A program made the position numbers and the translations under genes. Positions 48,585 through 59,608 of a DNA stretch of 64,000 bases are shown here, piece after piece. The DNA comes from Burkholderiales bacterium 39-55-53 (GTDB lineage: Bacteria; Pseudomonadota; Gammaproteobacteria; Burkholderiales; Burkholderiaceae_C), in NCBI GenBank assembly GCA_002282445.1, contig NCJK01000001.1, positions 744,001 through 808,000 of the forward strand. Reading direction: 5' to 3'. Under the pieces are notes generated by a model. The model was not told the origin of the DNA. It saw only the letters and a list, made by a program, of their open reading frames with translations, and made no database searches. Each line of letters begins with the position of its first letter. Within the stretch, counting starts at the first letter, position 1.

Positions 48585-48643
48585 TGGCGGAGAAGGAGGG
48601 ATTCGAACCCTCGGTAGGGTCGCCCCTACGCTTGATTTCGAGT
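48585..48643 (-). pseudogene. 3' half of chromosomal tRNA-Ser(CGA), broken by insertion
   Basis: Read on the minus strand this gives the anticodon loop and stem (CTCGAAATCAAG), the serine-type long variable arm, the T arm (GAGGG TTCGAAT CCCTC), acceptor strand CTTCTCC, discriminator G and encoded CCA. The sequence before the anticodon loop is not tRNA. The matching 5' half is at 59567-59608. Joined at the shared core the halves give a 90-nt tRNA whose acceptor (GGAGAAG/CTTCTCC) and anticodon stem (CTTGA/TCAAG) pair perfectly. Confidence 0.9.
48633..48643 (-). other. Attachment site copy (left end of the element)
   Basis: TGATTTCGAGT on the plus strand matches exactly, and in the same orientation, the copy at 59567-59577. 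On the minus strand it reads ACTCGAAATCA, the anticodon loop and 3' stem of tRNA-Ser(CGA). This 11-bp core marks the strand-exchange region. Confidence 0.85.
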
Positions 48644-48850
48644 ACAGGAAGAAGCGTTGCAGACTGCATGAACATTGGCTCGCGAGAGACATGGTCTTTT
48701 TTGTGTAGTCATTGTGCAGTTTGTACAGCTTCTTTTTGTACTTTGGTATCAAACCTTTTCCAAGATTCGGTGTCAGTCGTTGTTAAAAAATTCGTCAAGT
48801 GATTTTAACTCAGTCACCTAGCTATAAAAGTATAGGAAGGCAGTTGGAAT
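48644..48850. other. Non-coding left margin of the element
   Basis: These 207 bases lie between the left attachment core and the first gene. I see no convincing reading frame. Some open frames run across the tRNA fragment but have no start context. Integrase arm-type binding sites would be expected here, but I cannot define them by eye. Confidence 0.4.
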
Positions 48851-49207
48851 TCAAAGGCGTGTAGCAGCAGCTTGATTCACTTTTCGTAGCTTTTCTTGAG
48901 ACTTCAAAAAGTCTTGTCTTGCCTTGAGTTGCTTTTCTTGCGTTTTGTACTTTGCAGCTTGGTCAGCTAATGACTTGACTTGAAGTTGTTGAGGCGTGAG
49001 AGTCTTAGTCCCCTCCTCTATCTCGTTCACTTGCTCGTTCAACTCACTAACACTAAACACGTTTCTGTCACCATACTTGTGCTGAAAGATTTGTCGTGCG
49101 TAGCTCAGTGACTCTGTGCGCTCTGTAGCTGTGACAGTTGCGCCATTCTTCAGCTTCACACGTGCGATGTAGGTCTTGATTGGGCTTGTAATTTCATAAA
49201 GTTTCAT
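48851..49207 (-). CDS. Hypothetical protein with C-terminal coiled coil
   Basis: This 118-residue product is not recognised. Residues 1-55 look like a small beta-rich domain (KTYIARVKLKNGATVTATER, then SYARQIFQHKYG). Residues 65-112 are charged, rich in Lys/Gln and likely coiled coil (KYKTQEKQLKARQDFLKSQE). The N-terminal part resembles small single-domain proteins on plasmids and phages, but I cannot name a family. It is the leftmost gene of the element and is divergent from the secreted protein gene. Confidence 0.6.
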   Translation of the reverse strand: MKLYEITSPIKTYIARVKLKNGATVTATERTESLSYARQIFQHKYGDRNVFSVSELNEQVNEIEEGTKTLTPQQLQVKSLADQAAKYKTQEKQLKARQDFLKSQEKLRKVNQAAATRL

Positions 49208-49275
49208 AGAGATATTTATGATTTATGATGAGATTGATAACTTGTAAAGAGCGACCAAACTTAGGCAGTAGCAAC

Positions 49276-50118
49276 ATGAAAACGACACATAAAACCCATT
49301 TGATACAACTATTCATGTTGTTTTTTATGCTAAGTTCATTTCAGCACTCTTTCGCAGTTGAGAAAACAAGTGGTAAAGATTTCCTCAACAGAGCTATCAA
49401 ATACGATACGAACAACATCAAGTCATATGGTCGAGTCGTGACAAGTTCTGTCAATTATTCAATGGAAACTTCTGAACAAAAAATTGTTAAAAGCACAGAC
49501 AAACACATCTTTTTCTGTGCAAGTGGCGAACTTTACGAATATGAATCTGAATCAAACGAGTACAACAAAGATGGTTCGTGGAACAAAAGCAACCCTAAAG
49601 TTGATTCGAAAGATAAGGCAACTCCGATTAATCTAGAAAAAACTGAACAGCATTGGCTGAAGTTTGGAGGACTCAATGGACTCTATCAAGACATGCAAGC
49701 CAAATGCAGCACTGCAAACAGCAAAAATCCACGCATAGAAATTCCTATTGTTCGTTCTGAGTCAGCTGTTTCTCATGCCATTCTTGATACATATTCGAAC
49801 GATGGGAAATGGCGACATATTTGGCTCAAAGAACAGAAAATTTACAAGTCACAGATGAAAGACTCAAGTGGCAATCCACTTGTACTAAGTGGCGAAACAA
49901 TGTACGACTATAAATTTGTTGAGCCAAGAAACTACTCAATGAATAGGTACGCAGTAGATTGCAAACAAGATGCATTAGCTATTTCACAATTGATTGAATA
50001 CAAAGCCAACGGTGAAGTACTGAAAAGTGAATCAGTTGACCTCAATCGTCTAAGACTTGGCTCTGTGATTCCAAGCTCGATTGGAGAAGCAATACACAAG
50101 TTTGTATGTGGTTTGTAA
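49276..50118 (+). CDS. Hypothetical secreted protein of the element
   Basis: This 280-residue protein has an N-terminal signal peptide (LIQLFMLFFMLSSFQHSFA, cleavage about residue 28) and a hydrophilic mature part with two or three cysteines. No domain is recognised. The start at 49276 is chosen because it begins the signal peptide; the frame is open 17 codons further upstream. Presence of a secreted protein among plasmid-like genes suggests a role at the cell surface, but none can be assigned. The zinc-ribbon gene follows after 13 bp. Confidence 0.65.
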   Translation: MKTTHKTHLIQLFMLFFMLSSFQHSFAVEKTSGKDFLNRAIKYDTNNIKSYGRVVTSSVNYSMETSEQKIVKSTDKHIFFCASGELYEYESESNEYNKDGSWNKSNPKVDSKDKATPINLEKTEQHWLKFGGLNGLYQDMQAKCSTANSKNPRIEIPIVRSESAVSHAILDTYSNDGKWRHIWLKEQKIYKSQMKDSSGNPLVLSGETMYDYKFVEPRNYSMNRYAVDCKQDALAISQLIEYKANGEVLKSESVDLNRLRLGSVIPSSIGEAIHKFVCGL

Positions 50119-50131
50119 TCTGCATTAATTT

Positions 50132-50533
50132 ATGGGACAAGTCTTAGGGACTGTTTGCGATTGTGGCTACAAAGGTAGTGCTGCATTAGGCGCAGGAAGA
50201 AGTGACTTTCGTGAAGTTTGCAAGTTCCCTCACTACTGTAAGTCGTGTAATGAAGTCGTGAGCGTTGACATTTTCAAAGATAAGCACGTGTGTCCTAAGT
50301 GCCAAAGTGGTGATGTTCACACATATGAAGCCCAAACAACACGACTTAAAAATGAAACTCACGAACAGTTAAGTGATGTTCATCTTGGAAGACTTGGCTT
50401 ACATCGTAGAAGTGATGAGCAAGACAGTTGGTATGGAAAAGATAAAAGTCACACCTTGCTTAGAGGACCACACTATTGCCCTAAATGTGAACAGAACACG
50501 CTGAAGTTTTTTACAGAGTTAATGTTTGATTGA
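50132..50533 (+). CDS. Zinc-ribbon protein of unknown function
   Basis: This 133-residue protein has paired cysteines typical of zinc ribbons: CDC at 9-11, C30 and CKSC at 36-39, CPKC at 54-57 and CPKC at 116-119. Two or three metal sites are possible. Such ribbons bind nucleic acids or proteins. No catalytic motif is visible. It follows the secreted protein gene closely and ends in a bidirectional terminator. Confidence 0.65.
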   Translation: MGQVLGTVCDCGYKGSAALGAGRSDFREVCKFPHYCKSCNEVVSVDIFKDKHVCPKCQSGDVHTYEAQTTRLKNETHEQLSDVHLGRLGLHRRSDEQDSWYGKDKSHTLLRGPHYCPKCEQNTLKFFTELMFD

Positions 50534-50562
50534 AAACCCACATCACAAGATTATGGGTTTTC
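50532..50562. terminator. Bidirectional terminator between two convergent element genes
   Basis: A perfect 9-bp stem GAAAACCCA (50532-50540) / TGGGTTTTC (50554-50562) begins at the stop codon of the zinc-ribbon gene. It lies 10 bp from the end of the convergent DUF6641-like gene. Confidence 0.75.
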
Positions 50563-50571
50563 TAGCAAGAA

Positions 50572-51015
50572 TTACTTCTTGAATCGAGCTTTCACAAGCT
50601 CACTCGTTACTTCTATTTGACTGTCGAGCTCACCATTCAGAACAGCTTCGTTGAGCTTAGTGAGGGCTGCAATGAGTTCGTCTGCATTGTTTACTTCAAC
50701 TGAGTTCTTGTCTCCCTTAGAAGTTAAAGCAACAACCTTGTTGCCATAGCGAACTTGAACACAGACTTTGTTGTTTGAAACGAACCACCATTCTTTTGGT
50801 TTCTTCGAAACTTCAACTGATTGAATTAACCCATTTTCATCACGAACATTGCGCTGACGCTTCACAGTAAATGTTTCGTTATTTTTTAATGCATGCGCCA
50901 TTGAAACTTGTTCTAGCAGCTTCTGACTCACACGTTGGCGACGAAATTGAATTGGGTCAAGAACCGAACTGCGCTTTGCTGCGACCAACTTCAAAGACGA
51001 AAGAATTGAAGACAT
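50572..51015 (-). CDS. DUF6641-like protein
   Basis: This 147-residue protein has the family pattern SSILSSLKLVAAKRSS at the N-terminus, RRQRVSQKLLEQVSMAHAL, then WWFVSNNKVCVQVRYGNKVV and a C-terminal helical stretch. The match to DUF6641 is from memory of the pattern, not a search. Members are found on plasmids and genomic islands of Burkholderiales and have no known function. It faces the zinc-ribbon gene convergently and is divergent from the HUH gene. Confidence 0.65.
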   Translation of the reverse strand: MSSILSSLKLVAAKRSSVLDPIQFRRQRVSQKLLEQVSMAHALKNNETFTVKRQRNVRDENGLIQSVEVSKKPKEWWFVSNNKVCVQVRYGNKVVALTSKGDKNSVEVNNADELIAALTKLNEAVLNGELDSQIEVTSELVKARFKK

Positions 51016-51140
51016 AAATCACTCCATTTGTTGTTAAAGACAGAGTGATTTTTCGCCCATTCTCCATTTATTCCTATCCTTGTCCAACCTCTAGTATTTG
51101 GTTTTTTTATGGAAATATTTGGTTATGCATAAATAGATGC

Positions 51141-51653
51141 ATGACTCTCTTTGAAATACGACAAATCATCCAAAAATCAGAGCTAAATCGTCCAAATTGC
51201 AGAACTGCGACTAGGCAGTTTTTGGGCACCCTCGCAAGTGACTACACAGTCGCTTTGACGCTAACGCTGAATCAAAAATGGTTTGATAAATGTGGCTTGA
51301 TGAGAGTTGAGCACTACTTGAAAGAAGAAGATATTCCATACATATACGCTCGTTTTCAGCATCAACTTAACAAGTTGATTTGGAAGAACAGATACACAAG
51401 ATTTGGTGAGTCTGTGAAGATGCTCAGAGCGTGGGAAGACAAACATGGGACTAAGCGCAAGCACTTACATGCAGCCTTAGGAAACTTCCCCTCTAATTTC
51501 AAACTCAATACATTACCTTTGCTTGTAGAGAAGGCATCTCAGCAGTGCTTTGAGATTGACTACCAACACAAAGAGGATATTTGTGACAGTGGATGGATTG
51601 AGTACATCACGAAGGAAGTTGACAAGGACAACACAGACAAGATTCTGTGGTGA
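51141..51653 (+). CDS. HUH-type replication/relaxase-like protein
   Basis: This 170-residue protein carries the three landmarks of HUH endonucleases in order: a hydrophobic strand YTVALTLTLNQ (residues 35-45, motif 1), KHLHAAL with HLH at 108-110 (metal-binding motif 2), and EYITKEV with Tyr155 and Lys158 (motif 3, nicking tyrosine). The size fits small rolling-circle initiators that lack a helicase. The start at 51141 gives MTLFEIRQII; an upstream extension looks unnatural. It could let the element replicate or mobilise after excision. A family search is needed to fix the branch. Confidence 0.6.
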   Translation: MTLFEIRQIIQKSELNRPNCRTATRQFLGTLASDYTVALTLTLNQKWFDKCGLMRVEHYLKEEDIPYIYARFQHQLNKLIWKNRYTRFGESVKMLRAWEDKHGTKRKHLHAALGNFPSNFKLNTLPLLVEKASQQCFEIDYQHKEDICDSGWIEYITKEVDKDNTDKILW

Positions 51654-51932
51654 TTGTCATTACTGCGTTATTGACCGTGATTCGTAGTCGTGTACGAATT
51701 GCATTTTGTCTGTCTCTCGCAGCTAACGAGGAGAGTCGTAAGACTCTTTAATAGCGCAGCTTTGCCTAAAATTTCTTGAACTCGTAATGACTCTGATTGG
51801 TTAAGAAAAATACAAAGGCTAGCGAGAAGAATTCACTGAAATTGGTCAATAAATGGCGAATTAAATGGATTAAATTGAAAAAAGCAAAAAGGTCAAAAAG
51901 TGCATGTGTGATGGATGCACTTCATCAAAGCA
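51654..51932. other. Intergenic region with a terminator for the DUF6876-like gene
   Basis: This 279-bp AT-rich gap has no supported gene. At 51898-51922 a stem AAGTGCAT/ATGCACTT with a 9-base loop is followed on the minus strand by TTT, which fits a terminator of the gene at 51933-52292. The rest could hold an origin for the adjacent Rep-like protein, but no nick site can be named. Confidence 0.5.
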
Positions 51933-52292
51933 TCAGTACTCGCTAGTGAGCATGATGACCCAATGCTCACCATCAAATGAGCAGTACAGTTTGATTTCAT
52001 TCAATGGGAAGTCTGTGTACTCAATCGCTTGTGTTGCGAACACATTGTCATTTCCATCATCAAGCGTCAGAACAGCGCTTGACCCATTCACGACTAGACG
52101 AGCTACAGCAAAGTGGTCTTCATAGCTTCGTGTGAGATGTGAAGCAATTGCATCAAAGAGCCAAAAAGACTTTTCATTCTCAGCAAGATACTTTGTTCCA
52201 TCAGTCAGTACATGACGACTAGTGATGGGATAGAGTTTTTCAGTGCCAATGAATTGACTGAGTTCAGATTGAAGGTTGTGTGTTGAGTTCAT
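51933..52292 (-). CDS. DUF6876-like protein
   Basis: This 119-residue protein has the pattern LTDGTKYLAENEKSFWLFDA, then LDDGNDN and IEYTDFPLNEIKLYC, which I associate with DUF6876. Members occur on plasmids and islands and have no known role. The identification is from memory and was not searched. It is divergent from modA, and a terminator lies just after its stop codon. Confidence 0.65.
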   Translation of the reverse strand: MNSTHNLQSELSQFIGTEKLYPITSRHVLTDGTKYLAENEKSFWLFDAIASHLTRSYEDHFAVARLVVNGSSAVLTLDDGNDNVFATQAIEYTDFPLNEIKLYCSFDGEHWVIMLTSEY

Positions 52293-52401
52293 GTACTCAA
52301 CTTTGAACCCATCTCCAAATCATTCCTAGCCTCTCCAACGAATTCCGTTGTGTGAGGTAAACAGCTATCATTTGTGAAACAAAAACTTCTTACATGAGCC
52401 T

Positions 52402-53157
52402 ATGTCAATTCTGCGAACCACAACATTGTCATTTTTAATGCTCCTCAGCATCCCCTCGTATGCTGAAGAAATTCTTATCGCTGCTGCTGCTGATTTGAAA
52501 TTTGCAATGGATGAAGTCATTAAAGATTTCAAAGTTGCTAATCCCTCTGACAAAATCAGTGTCGTCTATGGATCAAGTGGAACATTTCTATTGCAGATAC
52601 AAAATGGTGCTCCATACGACTTGTACTTCAGCGCAGACATAGACTTTCCAAAGAAACTTCAATCAATGAAGTTGACTAGCTCAGAAGTCAAGCCCTACGC
52701 TTTTGGTCGTCTTGTACTGTGGTCAAACCAAGTTGATGCAAGCAAAATGACCCTCAGAGATTTAGTAGATAAATCAATCTCTCGCATTGCAATTGCGAAC
52801 CCTCAACATGCACCATATGGGAAACGAGCATCAGAAGCACTTCAAGCAGTGAATGCTTACGATGCAGTTAAAGAAAAATTAGTGTTAGCTGAAAACATTG
52901 GTCAAGCATCTCAATGGGTAAAAACAGGAAATGCTCAAGTTGGCATCATTGCATTGTCACTTGCACTTAGTAGTGAGATGCAAGGGCAAGGAAAGTACTC
53001 TCTGATTGATGAAAAATTGCACCAACGACTTGAGCAAGGCTTTGTCATTACCAAACATGCTGAGAAAAGTAGTTTGGCAAAAAGATTTGCTGACAACATG
53101 TCTTCAATGAAAACTCGTTCAGTAATGGAGAGATATGGGTTCGTTATCCCTAAGTAA
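52402..53157 (+). CDS. modA: Molybdate-binding periplasmic protein ModA, without partner genes
   Basis: This 251-residue protein has a signal peptide (ending SIPSYA) and the ModA pattern ILIAAAADLKFAMDEVI, YGSSGTFLLQIQNGAPYDLYFSAD and IANPQHAPYGKRA, which line the molybdate site. ModA normally feeds the ModBC permease, but no modB or modC is on the element. It may deliver molybdate to a host ModBC, or bind another oxyanion. Base composition matches the AT-rich element, so it was not picked up recently from the present host chromosome. Confidence 0.85.
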   Translation: MSILRTTTLSFLMLLSIPSYAEEILIAAAADLKFAMDEVIKDFKVANPSDKISVVYGSSGTFLLQIQNGAPYDLYFSADIDFPKKLQSMKLTSSEVKPYAFGRLVLWSNQVDASKMTLRDLVDKSISRIAIANPQHAPYGKRASEALQAVNAYDAVKEKLVLAENIGQASQWVKTGNAQVGIIALSLALSSEMQGQGKYSLIDEKLHQRLEQGFVITKHAEKSSLAKRFADNMSSMKTRSVMERYGFVIPK

Positions 53158-53652
53158 CTAGGTTTTGTAGAGTGAAATGGTAGGAATGGCGAAATCGTGT
53201 TGCTGTCTATTTCAGCAACCATAGATAGGACTCATTACAAGACGCCACACACGCACGATTTCACTCGTATACGGACCATATACGGTAGAACACTGAGGTC
53301 GTCTCTAGCTTGGATTAAACGAGTCACGCACGAAAGGTGAAACTTTATGTTTGCCTTCGTTACTATATTTTTATAGCAACAGATTTCTGTGACGACTCAC
53401 ACGCACTCACAGACGCATCAAATCCAACTACAAGCGATTTTTACGAGCGAGACGACTCAGAGTGACTGTGGACTCATGCGTGTCTCAAATCGCTCGTGAG
53501 CAAAATAATGTTTGGAAATACAGATAAGTAAACATTGCCAATGAAGCGTGTTGATTCCCAACGAAAAGGCATGGGAATTGGTGAACGGTTGTCCTACCAA
53601 ATGTTTGGGAATATCGTCTAGCTCATAAATAGTTAGATTAGTAAGGAACAAC
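53158..53652. repeat. Non-coding region rich in inverted repeats before the small recombinase
   Basis: About 495 bp has no supported gene. Visible pairs are GAAATCGTG (53191-53199) / CACGATTTC (53254-53262), GTTGCTG (53199-53205) / CAGCAAC (53213-53219), and ACGAGCGA (53443-53450) / TCGCTCGT (53490-53497). GACGACTCA occurs twice (near 53391 and 53451) and TATACGG is repeated near 53268-53285. This density suggests a recombination site or a replication origin. An 83-codon minus-strand frame overlapping the recombinase start is not believed. Confidence 0.55.
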
Positions 53653-54261
53653 ATGTCACAAGCAAAGATTCTCACGCAGTCAGAATTTCGCAAAATTCTT
53701 CTGCACATCGCAAAGAAGAAACATCACGCACGAAACAAAGCCATTTTGTACTGTAGTTTTTTTGGATGCATGAGGGTTGGTGAGATTGCGAGTCTCACAA
53801 TCAGTGATGTACTCAGTGAAGATGGGTCAATCAAAGAAGAGGTCTATCTGAAGCCTTTTCAGACAAAAGGTTCACGAGGTCGCACTGTCTACTTTCCAAC
53901 GAAGTTGCAAGACGAAATCAAGAACTATCTGTCTGTTAGATTTGGACTTAAAGACAAAGACTTGAGAGTGCTGAACTTGACTGACACAAGCAAAGCACTG
54001 TTTGGCTCGCAGAAGAACACTCAGCGAGGTTTCTCTCCAAACACTCTTTGTCAGTGGTTCACTAAGTTGTACGCTGACTGCTCTATCAATGGAGCATCAA
54101 GTCACAGTGGAAGGCGTTGGGGAGCTACGCAGTTGTGTGAGCAATCAGTCAACCCAAAAATCATTCAGAAGATTTTGGGTCATCGTCAATTGCAGACAAC
54201 GATGCTCTATTACGAAGTCTCCCCAAAGAGCATGAGAAACGCAGTTGAGTTACTTAGTTGA
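53653..54261 (+). CDS. Minimal tyrosine recombinase (catalytic domain only)
   Basis: This 202-residue protein contains only the catalytic domain of tyrosine recombinases, with all active-site residues: R41 in GCMRVGEIASL, K72 in FQTKGSRGR, H151 and R154 in SSHSGRRWG, H177 in LGHRQLQTTM, and Tyr186/187 in MLYYEV. The N-terminal core-binding domain is missing. Such short forms occur in some integrons' relatives, FimB-type invertases and island-borne recombinases. AAGGA precedes the ATG. Its 3' end overlaps the convergent HEPN-like gene by 12 bp. Its target may be the repeats just upstream. Confidence 0.8.
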   Translation: MSQAKILTQSEFRKILLHIAKKKHHARNKAILYCSFFGCMRVGEIASLTISDVLSEDGSIKEEVYLKPFQTKGSRGRTVYFPTKLQDEIKNYLSVRFGLKDKDLRVLNLTDTSKALFGSQKNTQRGFSPNTLCQWFTKLYADCSINGASSHSGRRWGATQLCEQSVNPKIIQKILGHRQLQTTMLYYEVSPKSMRNAVELLS

Positions 54262-54888
54262 GATAGCAGCTTGGGCTTCAATCTTAGAAACATACTGTTC
54301 AAACAAGTTGTATGTTTCATCAAGAATCAACTTAGCTAGTTCACCTAATGCATCAGTATTTTCTTTTCTGATTGATTCAGCACCATACGCAGTCAGATTT
54401 CCATGTGCAACCAAGTGTCTAATCTGTCGAGCAACTGCATGAAGATGCTTTCCATCAATGACGCCAAGATAGAAACTCATCAGTGCTTCCATTTGCACTG
54501 AGGTCCTTTGTGAAACATCTGCGTAATCAATCAGAATTTGAAGCAATTTTTCGTTATTCCAAATCTTTCTCGATATAGAAAAATCATCAAACGAGTGATT
54601 GTGCTTATCAATACTGAAGTCAACTGCTAAGTGCTTATTTCCAATAGCTCTGTTCTCATCTATAGCTTCAATCAGAGACTCAAACGCTGTGTAAGCTAGA
54701 AAGACTTTCAGCAGTGCATCGTATCCACGCAAAGTCTTTTCCCCATAACCATCAGCTTTTACACCATCAAATTTTGATGCGAGTCTGAACCTAGCGATGA
54801 AGCGAAATGAAGATGGGGCTCTATTAATAGTTGTCTTTTCATCTTTGACAAAATCAGCCCATCTCTTGAATGCAGTTTGCTTTTTCAT
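54250..54888 (-). CDS. HEPN-like protein with Rx4H motif
   Basis: This 212-residue, largely alpha-helical protein has IRHLVAHGN, in which Arg157 and His162 form the Rx4H motif of HEPN ribonucleases (family consensus Rx4-6H, often RNxxxH). Here the residue after Arg is His. HEPN domains cut RNA in many toxin-antitoxin, abortive-infection and CRISPR systems, and others act only as binding modules. It starts 3 bp after the stop of the transglycosylase-like gene and is probably translated from the same message. The assignment rests on the motif and helical pattern only. Confidence 0.5.
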   Translation of the reverse strand: MKKQTAFKRWADFVKDEKTTINRAPSSFRFIARFRLASKFDGVKADGYGEKTLRGYDALLKVFLAYTAFESLIEAIDENRAIGNKHLAVDFSIDKHNHSFDDFSISRKIWNNEKLLQILIDYADVSQRTSVQMEALMSFYLGVIDGKHLHAVARQIRHLVAHGNLTAYGAESIRKENTDALGELAKLILDETYNLFEQYVSKIEAQAAISTK

Positions 54889-54891
54889 GTT

Positions 54892-56262
54892 TTATTTGAT
54901 TGGTGCTTCATAGCCATGCACAACATCTTGCTTCTCTTTTTTTCCTATCTTTCCAAAAACTCTGTCAAGCATTGGTTTGTTCTTTGTTAGTTCACGCTTC
55001 CAATTTTTTACTGTGAACACATGCTCAATGAAATCAACTACTTCGAGAATTTCATTTGGTACTGTTTCTTGTGCAGAACTTCTATCTAAGAAAACAAGTT
55101 CGTTAGCTTCTAAAAATGAACGCACATAGACATAGAGTGTGTGGTTAATCATCAGCAACCAAGAAATCGTATCTGTAGACATTCCTTGATACTTTCCACC
55201 ATTCACATTGATATGGTCAAGCGTCATCAATTCACCAAGTGGCGATGAGAAGGGAAAGTGAAATTTCCCATCAGTATTTGCATATATTGGGTTAGTTTGT
55301 ACTTCACTTGCACTCATCACCCATGTTCGCAAATCTTTCGTCAGCTTTGGATATCGCACTGTGTCGTGAAATTTCCCAACCATTTGAAATGGACTTGCAC
55401 TGTCATAGCTAATTTGCAACTTTGGGTTGTCTTTACGAAGTTGCTTCTGAATTGCTGTAAAGATAACTGCCCATGTTGGCTTTGAAACTCCAAGTGCATG
55501 TACCCAATCTTGACCATCTACAAAAGCGTCTTCGTCTTTCATCATCAAGATGTTGTAGAGAACTGAGTCAAGTCCCCCTCCCCAACCTACATCTCCTGCA
55601 AGTGCCCATCCATCAAATTTGTATTTCTTAACTTCATCCCACCACATTTTCATGTTGTGTGGGTCAGTTCCTTGAAGAACATTCAACCATTTCGTTCTTC
55701 CCATCCTATGTCTCTTGATGTACTTCAAATTTTCGACAGTCATGTCTAGCAACTGTCTTTCGCTGCAAATTTTGAAAGGACTTGATGACTGCTGCGAACC
55801 AATTGCCCATAGTGGCATATCAATCGTCATCGCATAGTCACTATTAGACTCAAGCCAATTTACAACCCTTCTTCGCACTTCGCCACATTCAGTCCATGCA
55901 CGAATAACACCATCTTGCGTTTTTTCTCGCTTGATGTGTTGTGTTCCAGGAAATGTGCCAATTCCAATTTGATAACCACCACTATCGCCAAGAATAGTTG
56001 TCGCACTTCTGTCTCGATTTGCTACTGAACATGCTCGAGGTGCATCATCTGAGAAGAGTCCTGCAGAATACAGCCCATAGCCATAGTGCCATAGCTTGCT
56101 TTTTGGATTTAAGTAATCTAGGTCTTTTAGCGTGATTCCATTTGGGAAAGGACGCTCTTTATCTCTGAGCCTGTCTGAATAGACATTGCGTGAGTACCAA
56201 CTTTGAATCGCAGGTAAGTAGACAGCAAACTCACTCCATCGAGGTGTTAAATCGATTCCCAT
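54892..56262 (-). CDS. TGT-fold transglycosylase, DpdA-like
   Basis: This 456-residue protein shows the ordered landmarks of the tRNA-guanine transglycosylase barrel: GDSGGYQIG (Asp93, the catalytic Asp of DSGGFQ), MTIDMPLW (Asp148), LNVLQG (194-198), LAGDVGWGGG (221-230), HALGVSKP (255-262) and SYDSASPFQ (Asp287, at the nucleophile position). The zinc motif CxCxxC of tRNA TGTs is absent, and the protein is longer. This fits DpdA-type enzymes, which put 7-deazaguanines into DNA. No preQ0 synthesis genes are on the element, so the base would come from the host. A tRNA target remains possible. Confidence 0.62.
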   Translation of the reverse strand: MGIDLTPRWSEFAVYLPAIQSWYSRNVYSDRLRDKERPFPNGITLKDLDYLNPKSKLWHYGYGLYSAGLFSDDAPRACSVANRDRSATTILGDSGGYQIGIGTFPGTQHIKREKTQDGVIRAWTECGEVRRRVVNWLESNSDYAMTIDMPLWAIGSQQSSSPFKICSERQLLDMTVENLKYIKRHRMGRTKWLNVLQGTDPHNMKMWWDEVKKYKFDGWALAGDVGWGGGLDSVLYNILMMKDEDAFVDGQDWVHALGVSKPTWAVIFTAIQKQLRKDNPKLQISYDSASPFQMVGKFHDTVRYPKLTKDLRTWVMSASEVQTNPIYANTDGKFHFPFSSPLGELMTLDHINVNGGKYQGMSTDTISWLLMINHTLYVYVRSFLEANELVFLDRSSAQETVPNEILEVVDFIEHVFTVKNWKRELTKNKPMLDRVFGKIGKKEKQDVVHGYEAPIK

Positions 56263-56269
56263 TTGAACC

Positions 56270-57943
56270 TCAAACTTTCTTGTAGACAGTGCTATTCAAG
56301 TGACCTAACTCATTGCAAGTGGGTACTGCTATGAAGAATGATGCGTTTGCTGTTTTGTACATGATTGTGAAAACATCTTCACTAGCATTCAGCAAAATAT
56401 CACTGACTATGCTTTGCTTGCCTAGCGCACTAAGAATTGGAAATATGTCTTTCGAACGCATGTGAAACGCTAAATTCTTCGAACCTTTAGCTACATTTGG
56501 TTTAGGAATTGCGTTTTCAGTTTGGGTGTACTTGCCACGAGTTCCATAGAACTTGAGTACGAACTCTTTTGACAGTTCCAACATCACTTGCTTATGTCTG
56601 TCTCTGTTGATTTGCACACCATACTCACGCAACCAACTTGAAACACAGATTGAATTCAATTCATCAATCCATGCTTTATCAACTGTTGCACTCCATGTTG
56701 GAGCTTTGAAAGAAGCCTTATCAATGTCTACTTGTTTTTCATTGCCATTCGAATGATGACTCATTGGATAAAAATACAGATTCGTAATTTTGTCAGTCAC
56801 TGTATTTCTAGTTTTTAGTCTGTGACTTGCTACTAAGTCTTCACCATCAAGAACTTCAATTCTTTGAGTCAATGTTGTAAAGAAACACAAGTCACGATTT
56901 TGAACAATGCTTTGTTCAATGAACCTATGATTTATAGCTCGAAGCGTTATATCTTCTTTCACATTCGATGGAAAGTGATTAGGTACAGCAATAGTTACTA
57001 CTGAACAATCACCACGACATTCACTTAAAAGAATGTCTTTGTGCGATGCTCTGATAACAAGTCTTTTCGATTGTTTAAGTCTTGTTTTTCCATCGCTTGC
57101 CAACACATCGCTTATGTCTGCAAGACTAGGTCTGTGCTTTTCTAATTGCAGTGGTAACGCTTGCGTTTCAATCACTTCAGCGAGAAGTCGCAGCACTTGT
57201 GGAGCGTTGTCATCGTTGCGTTTGTATGTTTCAACAATGGTGTCTTGAATGATTTCGTCTTTATTCGTAACACCAAGCACATCATATGAACCATCTTTTG
57301 CTCTTCTCAGCAAAGCAACTGCATAGCCTTTGCGAGTTACTTCAATTTTTTTATTCTTAGCTGCTATGCGTGTTATTGGATTTGCATTCTCTGAGTAAAA
57401 CAACTCACCCATTTCATTGTGCTTAGCAACAAGTGCTGTTTCACTAAGAATTTCTTGCTTTGTTTTTTTATCTGAGTTTTTTACATTCTTTGGTGAGCCT
57501 ACTTGCTCATCAGTTTTTTGCATAGGACTGACAAGATTCCCTACGCCACTGATACCACCCTTTGAATCGAAGAACTGTCTGATTTTTTCTTGTGGGTTTG
57601 CTACATCGTATGCATCTTTGTTTGTCTTGAATTCTTGATGCAATCCTCTTAATGCTCTTGCCCAATTTTGCACAGTTGGACCTTTGTAGCCATTCCAACC
57701 CATCTGCCAAACTAACCTTACCAATCTCGTGAAGTTCTCTTCTCCTCCACGACTAACTAACTTTTTTTCTGCGTAGAGTTCTTCTAGAAATCCATTTTGC
57801 TTTTCTGCTTCACGCCACCATAAATATGTTGCACCCAAGTTCAGATACAACCTTTGCTGACTGCTCTCATAAAGTTGCGTAATTTCATCTGCTTCAGCTA
57901 TCAGTGACTCAAGCGTTTTTTTGAGTTCAGATTTACTCGCCAT
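56270..57943 (-). CDS. Unknown protein encoded first in the transglycosylase operon
   Basis: This 557-residue protein is not recognised. Residues 1-110 are helical with WWREAEKQNG and GPTVQNWARALRGLHQEF. A Lys/Ser-rich linker (about 145-165) follows. Residues 195-300 and 330-400 look beta-rich (KGYAVALLRRAKDGSYDVLG). The last 50 residues (KDIFPILSALGKQS and later) faintly recall a sliding-clamp domain, but this is weak. GGAG lies before the ATG. The 7-bp gap to the transglycosylase gene indicates co-transcription, so it may supply substrate recognition. Confidence 0.6.
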   Translation of the reverse strand: MASKSELKKTLESLIAEADEITQLYESSQQRLYLNLGATYLWWREAEKQNGFLEELYAEKKLVSRGGEENFTRLVRLVWQMGWNGYKGPTVQNWARALRGLHQEFKTNKDAYDVANPQEKIRQFFDSKGGISGVGNLVSPMQKTDEQVGSPKNVKNSDKKTKQEILSETALVAKHNEMGELFYSENANPITRIAAKNKKIEVTRKGYAVALLRRAKDGSYDVLGVTNKDEIIQDTIVETYKRNDDNAPQVLRLLAEVIETQALPLQLEKHRPSLADISDVLASDGKTRLKQSKRLVIRASHKDILLSECRGDCSVVTIAVPNHFPSNVKEDITLRAINHRFIEQSIVQNRDLCFFTTLTQRIEVLDGEDLVASHRLKTRNTVTDKITNLYFYPMSHHSNGNEKQVDIDKASFKAPTWSATVDKAWIDELNSICVSSWLREYGVQINRDRHKQVMLELSKEFVLKFYGTRGKYTQTENAIPKPNVAKGSKNLAFHMRSKDIFPILSALGKQSIVSDILLNASEDVFTIMYKTANASFFIAVPTCNELGHLNSTVYKKV

Positions 57944-58112
57944 GACAACTCCAATTCATCAGAATCAAATGTTTATTGATTTTGACAATATAAGTGCTGT
58001 GAAGCTATGTGTGCAGTGGAATTGCAGCTTTATGCGATTTATTTTTGCTTCACAGTCAATGCACACTTGTACTGCGAAGGTCTCTCGACAACGCTCTACA
58101 AGCGTTTGCGAG

Positions 58113-58118
58113 TAGAAT
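58113..58118 (+). promoter_or_regulatory. Probable -10 element of the element-borne tRNA-Ser
   Basis: TAGAAT lies 9 bp upstream of the first tRNA base. A hairpin AACGCT/AGCGTT (58090-58106) sits where the -35 region would be. No good TTGACA match is visible. The 184 bp between 57944 and 58127 hold no other gene. Confidence 0.4.
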
Positions 58119-58127
58119 CATTTTTGT

Positions 58128-58218
58128 GGAGAGATGGCAGAGTGGTCGAATGTACCTGACTCGAAATCAGGCGTAGGGTTTTCCCCTACCGAGGGTTCGA
58201 ATCCCTCTCTCTCCGCCA
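58128..58218 (+). tRNA. tRNA-Ser(CGA), complete copy carried by the element
   Basis: This is a 91-nt class II tRNA. The acceptor GGAGAGA pairs with TCTCTCC, followed by G and encoded CCA. The anticodon stem CCTGA/TCAGG encloses loop CTCGAAA with anticodon CGA (58162-58164). A long serine variable arm and T arm GAGGG TTCGAAT CCCTC are present. Compared with the broken chromosomal tRNA it differs in the acceptor, anticodon stem and variable arm, with the pairs kept. It is therefore a separate, functional-looking gene and not a copied fragment. It lies opposite in orientation to the broken gene and contains the 11-bp core at 58159-58169. Confidence 0.95.
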
Positions 58219-58231
58219 TAATTCTTTTTGA

Positions 58232-59440
58232 TTACTTATTGGGTTCACTCTCCCAATCTTCGTAACCAAGTCTGTTGATGTTTCTCATCAACTGTCCCCC
58301 AAGCTGCTTTGCGTAATGCTCTTGAATCATCGCTACTGATGTTCGACAGTTATTCGCAATTTCGTAGATTGGTGCACCCCTCAACAGTCTGAAACAAATG
58401 TAAGTCGAACGCAACGACACAAAGTCACGCTTTGTAGGTGGTGTTGTCTTAGTGTGCTTCAGCTTCGTTTTCTCAAGAATCTTGTTGAACATTGTTCTGT
58501 GATGAACCAAGAACAACTTCTCAGTTGAGTCTTTTGCTTTTGCGTGAGTCATTCCTCTACGCTTCAAGATGCGCTCGTAAGCAGCAACAGCACCATAAAA
58601 ACTCTGACAGTTCCCAATTCCTCGTTTACCTTTGATGTTCGAGATGACTAAGATTCGCTTGTCAGTTGTCTTTTCTTTGACGATTTTTACATCGCAGAAA
58701 CGACATGCATTCATCTCTCCAACACGCATTCCTGTATTTGTTCCAAAAATCACATAGTCGTAGAGTTCAAGTGCATGTTGATGCAGCAGCTTGTCTCTTG
58801 TACTCAAATACTCAGCATGTGCAGCAATTGTTCGATGTAACTTTGAGTACTCGTGTGCAGTAAACCACGCTCTAGTTGAGTTGTTCTTCTTTGTGTCGTA
58901 TTCATCTTTGAACTGTGGCAACTGTTTCAAGATGCCTTGTCTGAACGCATAGTTCAAGACCATTCTGATAGCGTTCTTGTACTGATGCAAAGTGCCACGC
59001 TTGATGCTTGGGTACGCAGCGACCATGTCTTCTTTGTACTTGTGCCAAGCTGTGTTGTCGATAGTCTGAACAGCTACTTTCTTGAAATAGTCTTTGACTC
59101 TTGAGTTCAAGATGCCTTCAATGCCCTCGTATGTCTTCAGACTACGCTGCCCTCTGTCCACAAACATACTTTTATAGTTAGCAAGTGCTTCGTCTGCTAA
59201 CTTGCCAAACTCATGCTTTGGAGACGAAATCTCGCCACTTGCAATCTCTGTCTGCTTGCTGAAATACCAATCTTTAGCGAACGCTTTTGCAGCTTCAAGG
59301 TGCTTTTGCTTTGTTGATGCTCGTAAGTATTTGCCCTTGAAGTGAAATCCACACCACCAAAAAGGCGAACCACTACGCATGAAGACATGCACTTTGCCTT
59401 CAAGAATCGTTACAGATTGGGGGAGTTTGTTATCAGTCAT
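58232..59440 (-). CDS. Tyrosine-type site-specific integrase of the element
   Basis: This 402-residue integrase has an N-terminal arm-binding region, a core-binding domain (about 80-180) and a catalytic domain. Arg239 (GTNTGMRVGEM), Lys270/272 (NIKGKRG), Arg344 (FVSLRSTYI) and the nucleophile Tyr376 (IQEHYAKQ) are present. The two histidines of the classical HxxR and H/W boxes are replaced (VSLR and NNC), as in one large group of phage-type integrases. It lies 127 bp inside the right attachment site and is read in the same direction as the host tRNA promoter, which may drive it. Confidence 0.9.
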   Translation of the reverse strand: MTDNKLPQSVTILEGKVHVFMRSGSPFWWCGFHFKGKYLRASTKQKHLEAAKAFAKDWYFSKQTEIASGEISSPKHEFGKLADEALANYKSMFVDRGQRSLKTYEGIEGILNSRVKDYFKKVAVQTIDNTAWHKYKEDMVAAYPSIKRGTLHQYKNAIRMVLNYAFRQGILKQLPQFKDEYDTKKNNSTRAWFTAHEYSKLHRTIAAHAEYLSTRDKLLHQHALELYDYVIFGTNTGMRVGEMNACRFCDVKIVKEKTTDKRILVISNIKGKRGIGNCQSFYGAVAAYERILKRRGMTHAKAKDSTEKLFLVHHRTMFNKILEKTKLKHTKTTPPTKRDFVSLRSTYICFRLLRGAPIYEIANNCRTSVAMIQEHYAKQLGGQLMRNINRLGYEDWESEPNK

Positions 59441-59566
59441 TTGGACTACACATTTGGGTCATCATTGAAAAATGATACTCCCAAAACTGATAATTGTGTA
59501 GTCCGTGTGTAGCTGCACAAAACCGATAAAAGCTAGTGTTTATGCGCTATAGAGAACGAAGTTGGC

Positions 59567-59577
59567 TGATTTCGAGT
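59567..59577 (-). other. Attachment site copy (right end of the element)
   Basis: TGATTTCGAGT is identical to the copy at 48633-48643. It sits in the anticodon loop region of the 5' tRNA-Ser half. The next bases on the element side (GCCAAC on the minus strand) do not restore the tRNA. Confidence 0.85.
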
Positions 59578-59608
59578 CAAGTACATTCGACCACTCTGCC
59601 ACTTCTCC
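59567..59608 (-). pseudogene. 5' half of chromosomal tRNA-Ser(CGA), broken by insertion
   Basis: Read on the minus strand this starts GGAGAAG (acceptor 5' strand), continues with the D arm GCAGAGTGGTCGAATG and the anticodon 5' stem CTTGA, and stops being tRNA-like after CTCGAAATCA. Together with 48585-48632 it makes a 90-nt tRNA-Ser(CGA). It keeps its promoter side, so a truncated transcript should still be made and run into the element. Confidence 0.9.

Follow-up and report, generated by a model that had tools for sequence, protein, structure and literature searches.

The window analysed here is a 64,000-nt stretch of the genome of Burkholderiales bacterium 39-55-53 (contig NCJK01000001.1, positions 744,001–808,000). 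It contains an integrative element that interrupts a host gene for tRNA-Ser(CGA) within the anticodon loop and carries a second, complete gene for the same tRNA beside its integrase (Table 1). The two halves of the host gene share an 11-bp core, ACTCGAAATCA, whose 5′-half copy is read from 59577 to 59567, and the core-to-core span is 10,934 bp. These positions agree with an earlier note on this DNA, which had placed the halves ~10.9 kb apart on the minus strand with an 11-bp core. The element has a GC content of 40.5%, compared with 56.9% in the rest of the window. Joined in a script, the halves form the perfect 90-nt tRNA-Ser(CGA) that the note described, identical letter for letter to the intact tRNA in 9 of the 29 relatives from which the locus was fetched. 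ARAGORN finds no tRNA at either element junction, in keeping with the note's picture of a site-specific insertion in the anticodon loop that restores the gene at neither end. The canonical cis-restoring layout, with an intact tRNA at one junction and a fragment at the other, is not seen in the window element.

The uninterrupted locus that the earlier note proposed seeking in related genomes is present there. A query composed of the lipoprotein gene and the 5′ half was searched against 61 genomes of the genus, including its own; 46 matched and 30 loci were fetched, one being the window's own. The tRNA-Ser(CGA) gene is intact in 29 of the 29 others. Seven of these loci matched the query over at least 478 nt, and the rest over the tRNA and/or at most 257 nt of flank only. 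The joined window flanks align across the junction over 2,048 nt in two relatives (L094 and L095; 86% and 85%), and in a third (L093) they align over the first 1,107 nt, reaching past the tRNA.

The carried tRNA-Ser(CGA) scores 60.2 bits, where the Rfam cut-off is 29, and 13 bp separate its 3′ end from the end of the integrase gene. A tRNA search of the window's own genome gave 38 matches, and the serine tRNAs read among them are UGA, GCU, GGA and the element's CGA. The earlier note had concluded that integration destroys the host tRNA. This is correct for the split gene, but the cell is not left without one, since a complete tRNA-Ser(CGA) lies on the element. The cell therefore keeps a gene for this tRNA, and the outcome is replacement, not mere destruction.

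Table 1. Coordinates of the split host gene and of features carried by the window element. Rim11, Limnohabitans sp. Rim11; G596, a genome of the same order; ORF, open reading frame.
Feature	Position	Strand	Remarks
3′ half of host tRNA-Ser(CGA)	48585..48643	-	59 nt (48643 to 48585); starts with second core copy, 48633-48643
DUF6641 protein	50572..51015	-	Similar ORFs by eye in Rim11 and G596 elements; matches PHROG of unknown function
HUH-type replication-protein-like ORF	51045..51653	+	Weak PF23343 match below cut-off; H-x-H and Y-x-x-K kept in Rim11 counterpart
DUF6876 protein	51933..52292	-	Also in G596 element (Pfam) and Rim11 element (by eye)
Cargo: molybdate-binding protein ModA	52402..53157	+	Rim11 slot instead holds EamA-like transporter (by eye)
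Second tyrosine recombinase	53653..54261	+	202 aa; Phage_integrase domain
Cargo protein, no assigned function	54892..56262	-	Rim11 counterpart 58% identical
Cargo protein, no assigned function	56270..57943	-	Rim11 counterpart (by eye)
-10-like hexamer TAGAAT	58113..58118	+	9 nt upstream of carried tRNA; 5/6 consensus match only
Complete element-borne tRNA-Ser(CGA)	58128..58218	+	91 nt; ARAGORN; only intact CGA tRNA found in genome
Tyrosine integrase	58232..59440	-	402 aa; PHROG integrase (phrog_1); Pfam matches below cut-off
5′ half of host tRNA-Ser(CGA)	59567..59608	-	42 nt (59608 to 59567); 3′ end is 11-bp core at 59567-59577

Elements of the same design in other hosts

A genome collection covering 84,980 species was scanned with exact peptide patterns for relatives of the integrase, and three loci were recovered. 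The relative in Limnohabitans sp. Rim11 (99%) belongs to a 12.8-kb element whose carried tRNA is the same as the window's over 91 of 91 nt, whereas the two split host tRNAs diverge in the anticodon stem, the variable arm and the T arm. The integrase–tRNA block has 96.7% DNA identity over 1,690 nt; other parts of the elements are less similar or unmatched, and the cargo is not the same (Table 1). Because the carried tRNAs are identical and the split host tRNAs are unlike, these are separate insertions of one unit that has travelled between hosts. The second relative, an integrase of 69% identity in a Comamonas metagenome-assembled genome (MAG), lies in an element of 3,961 bp with the same target gene and the same layout, in which a full tRNA-Ser(CGA) converges with the integrase and both host halves lie outside. 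In Rim11 and the Comamonas MAG, the other matches to the 3′-half query at E ≤ 0.01 are GGA and GCU tRNAs only, so that single-copy status is read there from DNA similarity only. The third locus (L037, 10019–10464), in a Hyphomicrobiales MAG, contains a partial integrase (55% identical) followed by tRNA-Leu(CAA) near the contig end, and is possibly another case of this kind.

Two other isotypes came to light when tRNAs were sought in the vicinity of related integrases. A six-integrase profile matched 18 of 399 genomes of the order, including the window's own, at E ≤ 1e-30. Of the 21 matches outside that genome, 20 were retrieved as larger regions. In genome G596, a host tRNA-Thr(CGT) gene is split into a 5′ half (L133:9503–9541) and a 3′ half (L156:17,023–17,068) that lie ~24.5 kb apart and join to give a 76-nt tRNA. 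Next to the 5′ half comes the integrase and after it, on the same strand, a full tRNA-Thr(CGT) whose sequence differs. The other threonine tRNAs of G596 are GGU and UGU, with no second CGT among the class-I-length tRNA matches (a minority of the class-II-length matches was read as well; the assembly is 91% complete). With this limit on the G596 assembly, the host tRNA is single-copy both there and in the window's own genome. In genome G746 the carried tRNA is that of G596 (76/76) and the integrase is 98% identical, with a different flank and 5′ half. Among the 26 genomes of the family to which both belong, 15 match the G596 5′-half query, mostly over ~40 nt of the tRNA, and tRNA-Thr(CGT) is intact at this site in 13 of the 15 (14 of the 17 loci fetched); only in G596 and G746 is it not. 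A class-wide integrase search (6 of 369 genomes at E ≤ 1e-30, including the window's own) added genome G876. Here tRNA-Leu(CAA) is split with 39,015 bp between its halves, which join to give an 85-nt tRNA, and a different full tRNA-Leu(CAA) directly follows the integrase.

The five elements with both junctions share one design. Each has attB in a host tRNA gene and a core of ~10 bp, and no tRNA is rebuilt at either junction. The run shared by the junctions measures 11 bp in the window, 12 bp in Rim11 (including the window's 11), 9 bp in the Comamonas MAG and in G596, and 11 bp in G876. The carried anticodon is that of the split gene in all three isotypes, Ser(CGA), Thr(CGT) and Leu(CAA). In all five the integrase ORF begins ~118–127 nt past the host 5′ half on the same strand; it would thus lie downstream of the host tRNA promoter and may be transcribed from it. 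Carried tRNA and integrase are convergent in the Ser elements; in the Thr and Leu elements the tRNA comes after the integrase, in the same direction. Host and carried anticodon stems differ in the window, the Comamonas MAG, G596 and G876. We considered a recoded anticodon stem as a shield for the carried tRNA against the element's own integrase, and rejected it because in Rim11 the entire anticodon arm is common to the host target and the carried tRNA. Replacement restricted to C34 tRNAs was also set aside as a rule: CGA, CGT and CAA would obey it, but this is a small number of isotypes, and Lys-TTT and Leu-UAG are among the published phage cases.

Other relatives of the integrase are associated with tRNA genes in different ways. 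Among loci with distant integrases, tRNA-Lys(TTT) is apparently restored by a 46-nt 3′ copy at L122, and at L137 (tRNA-Lys(CTT)) and L124/L253 (tRNA-Phe(GAA)) the gene is apparently restored by a 5′ copy that includes upstream sequence. An intact tRNA lies beside the integrase at L121, L123, L128, L129 and L130; the remaining loci have fragments, more distant tRNAs or none. On a tree of 41 integrases the split-and-replace label requires three changes, and none of 200 bootstrap trees requires only one, which suggests that the arrangement arose repeatedly, although one gain and two losses may account for the same tree. The window's own genome also contains, at C7:299055–439333, an intact tRNA-Asn(GTT) and two 45-nt 3′ fragments with a related integrase after each, an ordinary-looking array, and one more related integrase near a tRNA-Val(CAC) fragment.

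Searches of viral and plasmid sequences added no case of this kind. The window and G596 integrases have no relative in the viral_contigs set, and no integrase relative was found in the phage records searched. Alignment A1 recovered three loci from 58 candidate stretches of viral_contigs, with no intact tRNA near the integrase; the only tRNA in these loci lies in L119, 7.7 kb from the integrase. Nine plasmid records matched, and of four regions fetched three have no tRNA and one has an intact tRNA-Met beside the integrase. Thirteen further DUF6876 neighbourhoods (up to 20 kb each) contained no further split-and-replace case.

Role of the carried tRNA

Our interpretation, which we hold to be very probably correct, is that an integrative and apparently non-phage element splits tRNA-Ser(CGA) and replaces it in trans with the gene that it carries. 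The tyrosine integrase would carry out recombination between the host gene's anticodon loop and a short core in attP. With an attP that contains no tRNA half, the host gene would remain split for as long as the element is resident. The loss would be compensated in trans by the complete tRNA-Ser(CGA) beside the integrase, which is the only gene for that tRNA found in the genome. The host gene would be rebuilt if the element excised precisely, and loss of the element by any other route would remove the tRNA. Only precise excision would return the gene, so the element would in effect hold the tRNA hostage. We infer that the cell transcribes and charges the carried tRNA and pays for its loss, and that excision occurs.

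A -10-like hexamer lies 9–10 nt upstream of each of the five carried tRNAs tested (four distinct), as TAGAAT twice, TACAAT, TAAAAT and TATAAT, and the chance of such a match at a random position in the same locus is 0.003–0.048. Several observations weigh against replacement as we describe it. The -35/-10 pairs listed by a sigma-70 scan of the window include none upstream of the carried tRNA. tRNA-Ser(UGA) is intact in the window's own genome and tRNA-Thr(UGU) in G596, and U34 isoacceptors such as these could decode the affected codons by wobble. The presence of a U34 isoacceptor in both genomes checked makes strict essentiality of the host tRNA doubtful, and the cell may benefit from the carried tRNA without depending on it. 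Moreover, the G746 contig stops before any 3′ half, G876 may hold a second tRNA-Leu(CAA), and among 299 genomes of the family only the window's own contains its integrase at E ≤ 1e-20. The intact tRNA-Ser(UGA) and the missing -35/-10 pair would also be expected if the host lives without tRNA-Ser(CGA), with the UGA isoacceptor decoding UCG by wobble and the internal tRNA inert. We regard this as very unlikely, given that the carried tRNA is intact by ARAGORN and scores well above the Rfam cut-off, that carried tRNAs have -10-like hexamers and match the split anticodon in all three isotypes, and that two of them are identical between different hosts.

Codon usage bears on a second alternative, in which the tRNA serves the element, either for its own codons or as a spare against tRNA-cutting defences, and the anticodon match is incidental. 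Such roles have been proposed for phage tRNAs (PMC10865867, in the text available). In the long host ORFs of the window TCG accounts for 175 of 750 serine codons; in the element ORFs it accounts for only 21 of 189, with TCA and AGT preferred. TCG is thus commoner in host than in element ORFs and the carried tRNA suits the need of the host, not that of the element. Together with the anticodon, which is that of the split gene in all three isotypes, this makes an element-serving tRNA less probable still. The core within the carried tRNA is kept exactly, and in Rim11 so is the whole anticodon arm of the host target, as might be expected if the carried tRNA were mainly a spare landing site for tandem integration of more element copies; the authors of the mycobacteriophage work speculate on tandem insertion into a carried tRNA (PMC10865867, in the text available). 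However, all six carried tRNAs are uninterrupted, and a complete tRNA with a -10-like hexamer exceeds what an att site needs. This is the least probable of the three.

Of the 29 relatives, L078 and L079 have the tRNAs nearest to the carried tRNA-Ser(CGA), with alignment scores of 88 and 87 out of 91, and the joined gene of its own host scores 79.5, which fits a foreign source of the carried gene. More broadly, we lean slightly towards the view that tRNA handover is a recurrent, independently evolved strategy of non-phage elements in Pseudomonadota, in which attP is freed from carrying a tRNA half and the element is locked in, because the gene would be regained through precise excision alone.

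Gene content, known systems and significance

The integrase is assigned to the tyrosine family from its PHROG match and from R239, R344 and Y376, which are invariant in an alignment of eight sequences (A3) and which we take to be the catalytic residues. The Comamonas MAG element and, by eye, the Rim11 element have ORFs resembling the second recombinase; the G596 element encodes a 219-aa Phage_integrase protein. The first ~30 codons of the HUH-like ORF (window 51045–51140; L091 4227–4320) are near-identical between proteins that are overall only 32% identical, and may represent a conserved non-coding signal, for example an origin, read as protein. The window's own genome has five more DUF6876 genes (C1:65459, C7:317050, C7:340361, C7:405288 and C11:16054), which suggests that it contains several related elements. 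A three-gene cargo block (window 54250–57943; 557, 456 and 212 aa) has no family match above curated cut-offs, and it is the 456-aa protein that has the 58% identical Rim11 counterpart. A DSGG motif seen by eye in the protein at 54892–56262 raised the possibility of a TGT/DpdA-like identity. This was dropped: Pfam, NCBIfam, PADLOC and PDB sequences all failed to support it, and hhalign with the tgt-like ORF of L250 gave a probability of 7.7 over 12 columns.

None of the 12 main ORFs of the window element matches a phage structural family, and none of the proteins scanned from the other elements does so, the G596 and G876 ORFs having been scanned in part. Some element proteins match PHROGs of unknown function (phrog_31551, phrog_21557 and phrog_1250), the last of these in the G596 element, together with restriction and helicase genes. 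The G876 element encodes a relaxase, a type IV secretion system (T4SS) coupling protein, a ParA-like protein, a SIR2–Argonaute pair and a type IIG restriction enzyme. The SIR2-like protein and short Argonaute lie near the type IIG enzyme at L250 3804–6976.

The closest parallel is the tRNA-dependent lysogeny of actinobacteriophages, for which the need for the carried tRNA was proven experimentally (Guerrero-Bustamante and Hatfull, mBio 2024, PMC10865867). As described in the available text and table of that paper, those systems also use a tyrosine integrase and an attB within a host tRNA gene, leave the tRNA unrebuilt at the junctions and provide a tRNA of the same isotype on the element. Their shared cores are 8–17 bp, they include Lys-TTT cases, and in phage Gaia tRNA-Leu-CAA lies downstream of int. 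They are temperate phages of Actinobacteria, whereas the hosts here are Pseudomonadota, with a U34 isoacceptor in both genomes checked. We do not place the window element in that class because it does not look like a phage: no structural family occurs among the proteins scanned, and the G876 element has a relaxase and coupling protein. In Sinorhizobium meliloti, a proteobacterium, tRNA-Leu(UAG) is inactivated centrally and a functionally similar tRNA is present in the prophage, as here, but the available text of PMC11476347 describes prophages, in two strains, and another isotype. Prophage Lj965 of Lactobacillus johnsonii, as cited in PMC10865867, likewise leaves its tRNA unrebuilt and contains a cognate tRNA, but is a prophage of a Lactobacillus. 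In Caldiarchaeum, a recombinase separates a 5′ fragment of tRNA-Thr(GGU) from a full tRNA of that isotype 1.8 kb downstream (Sugahara 2012, PMC3293823). That case concerns an archaeon, is discussed in terms of intron gain and tRNA scattering, and has no displaced 3′ half mentioned in its abstract.

Ordinary anticodon-loop islands use the same target site and integrase class, but the gene is restored in cis at one junction (Islander, PMC4383910, in the text available). Several relatives of the window integrase appear to act as such islands (e.g. L122, L137 and L231). Islander seeks a tDNA and a fragment of it flanking the island, whereas both ends of the window element are fragments. Island finders that need a tRNA and a fragment at the two ends are therefore expected to miss such elements. 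A literature search of titles and abstract openings, with subscription papers mostly beyond its reach, recognised no tRNA replacement by non-phage elements.

tRNA replacement, known for temperate phages, is seen here in apparently non-phage elements with three tRNAs. This extends the mechanism to mobilizable and other apparently non-phage islands and to another phylum, and Ser(CGA) and Thr(CGT) are isotypes not listed as tRNA-dependent in the table of PMC10865867. The elements would represent a natural ‘break target, carry rescue’ retention device that is open to direct testing. They also indicate that an apparently core tRNA gene of a genome, here that of a freshwater bacterium, can be foreign and mobile.

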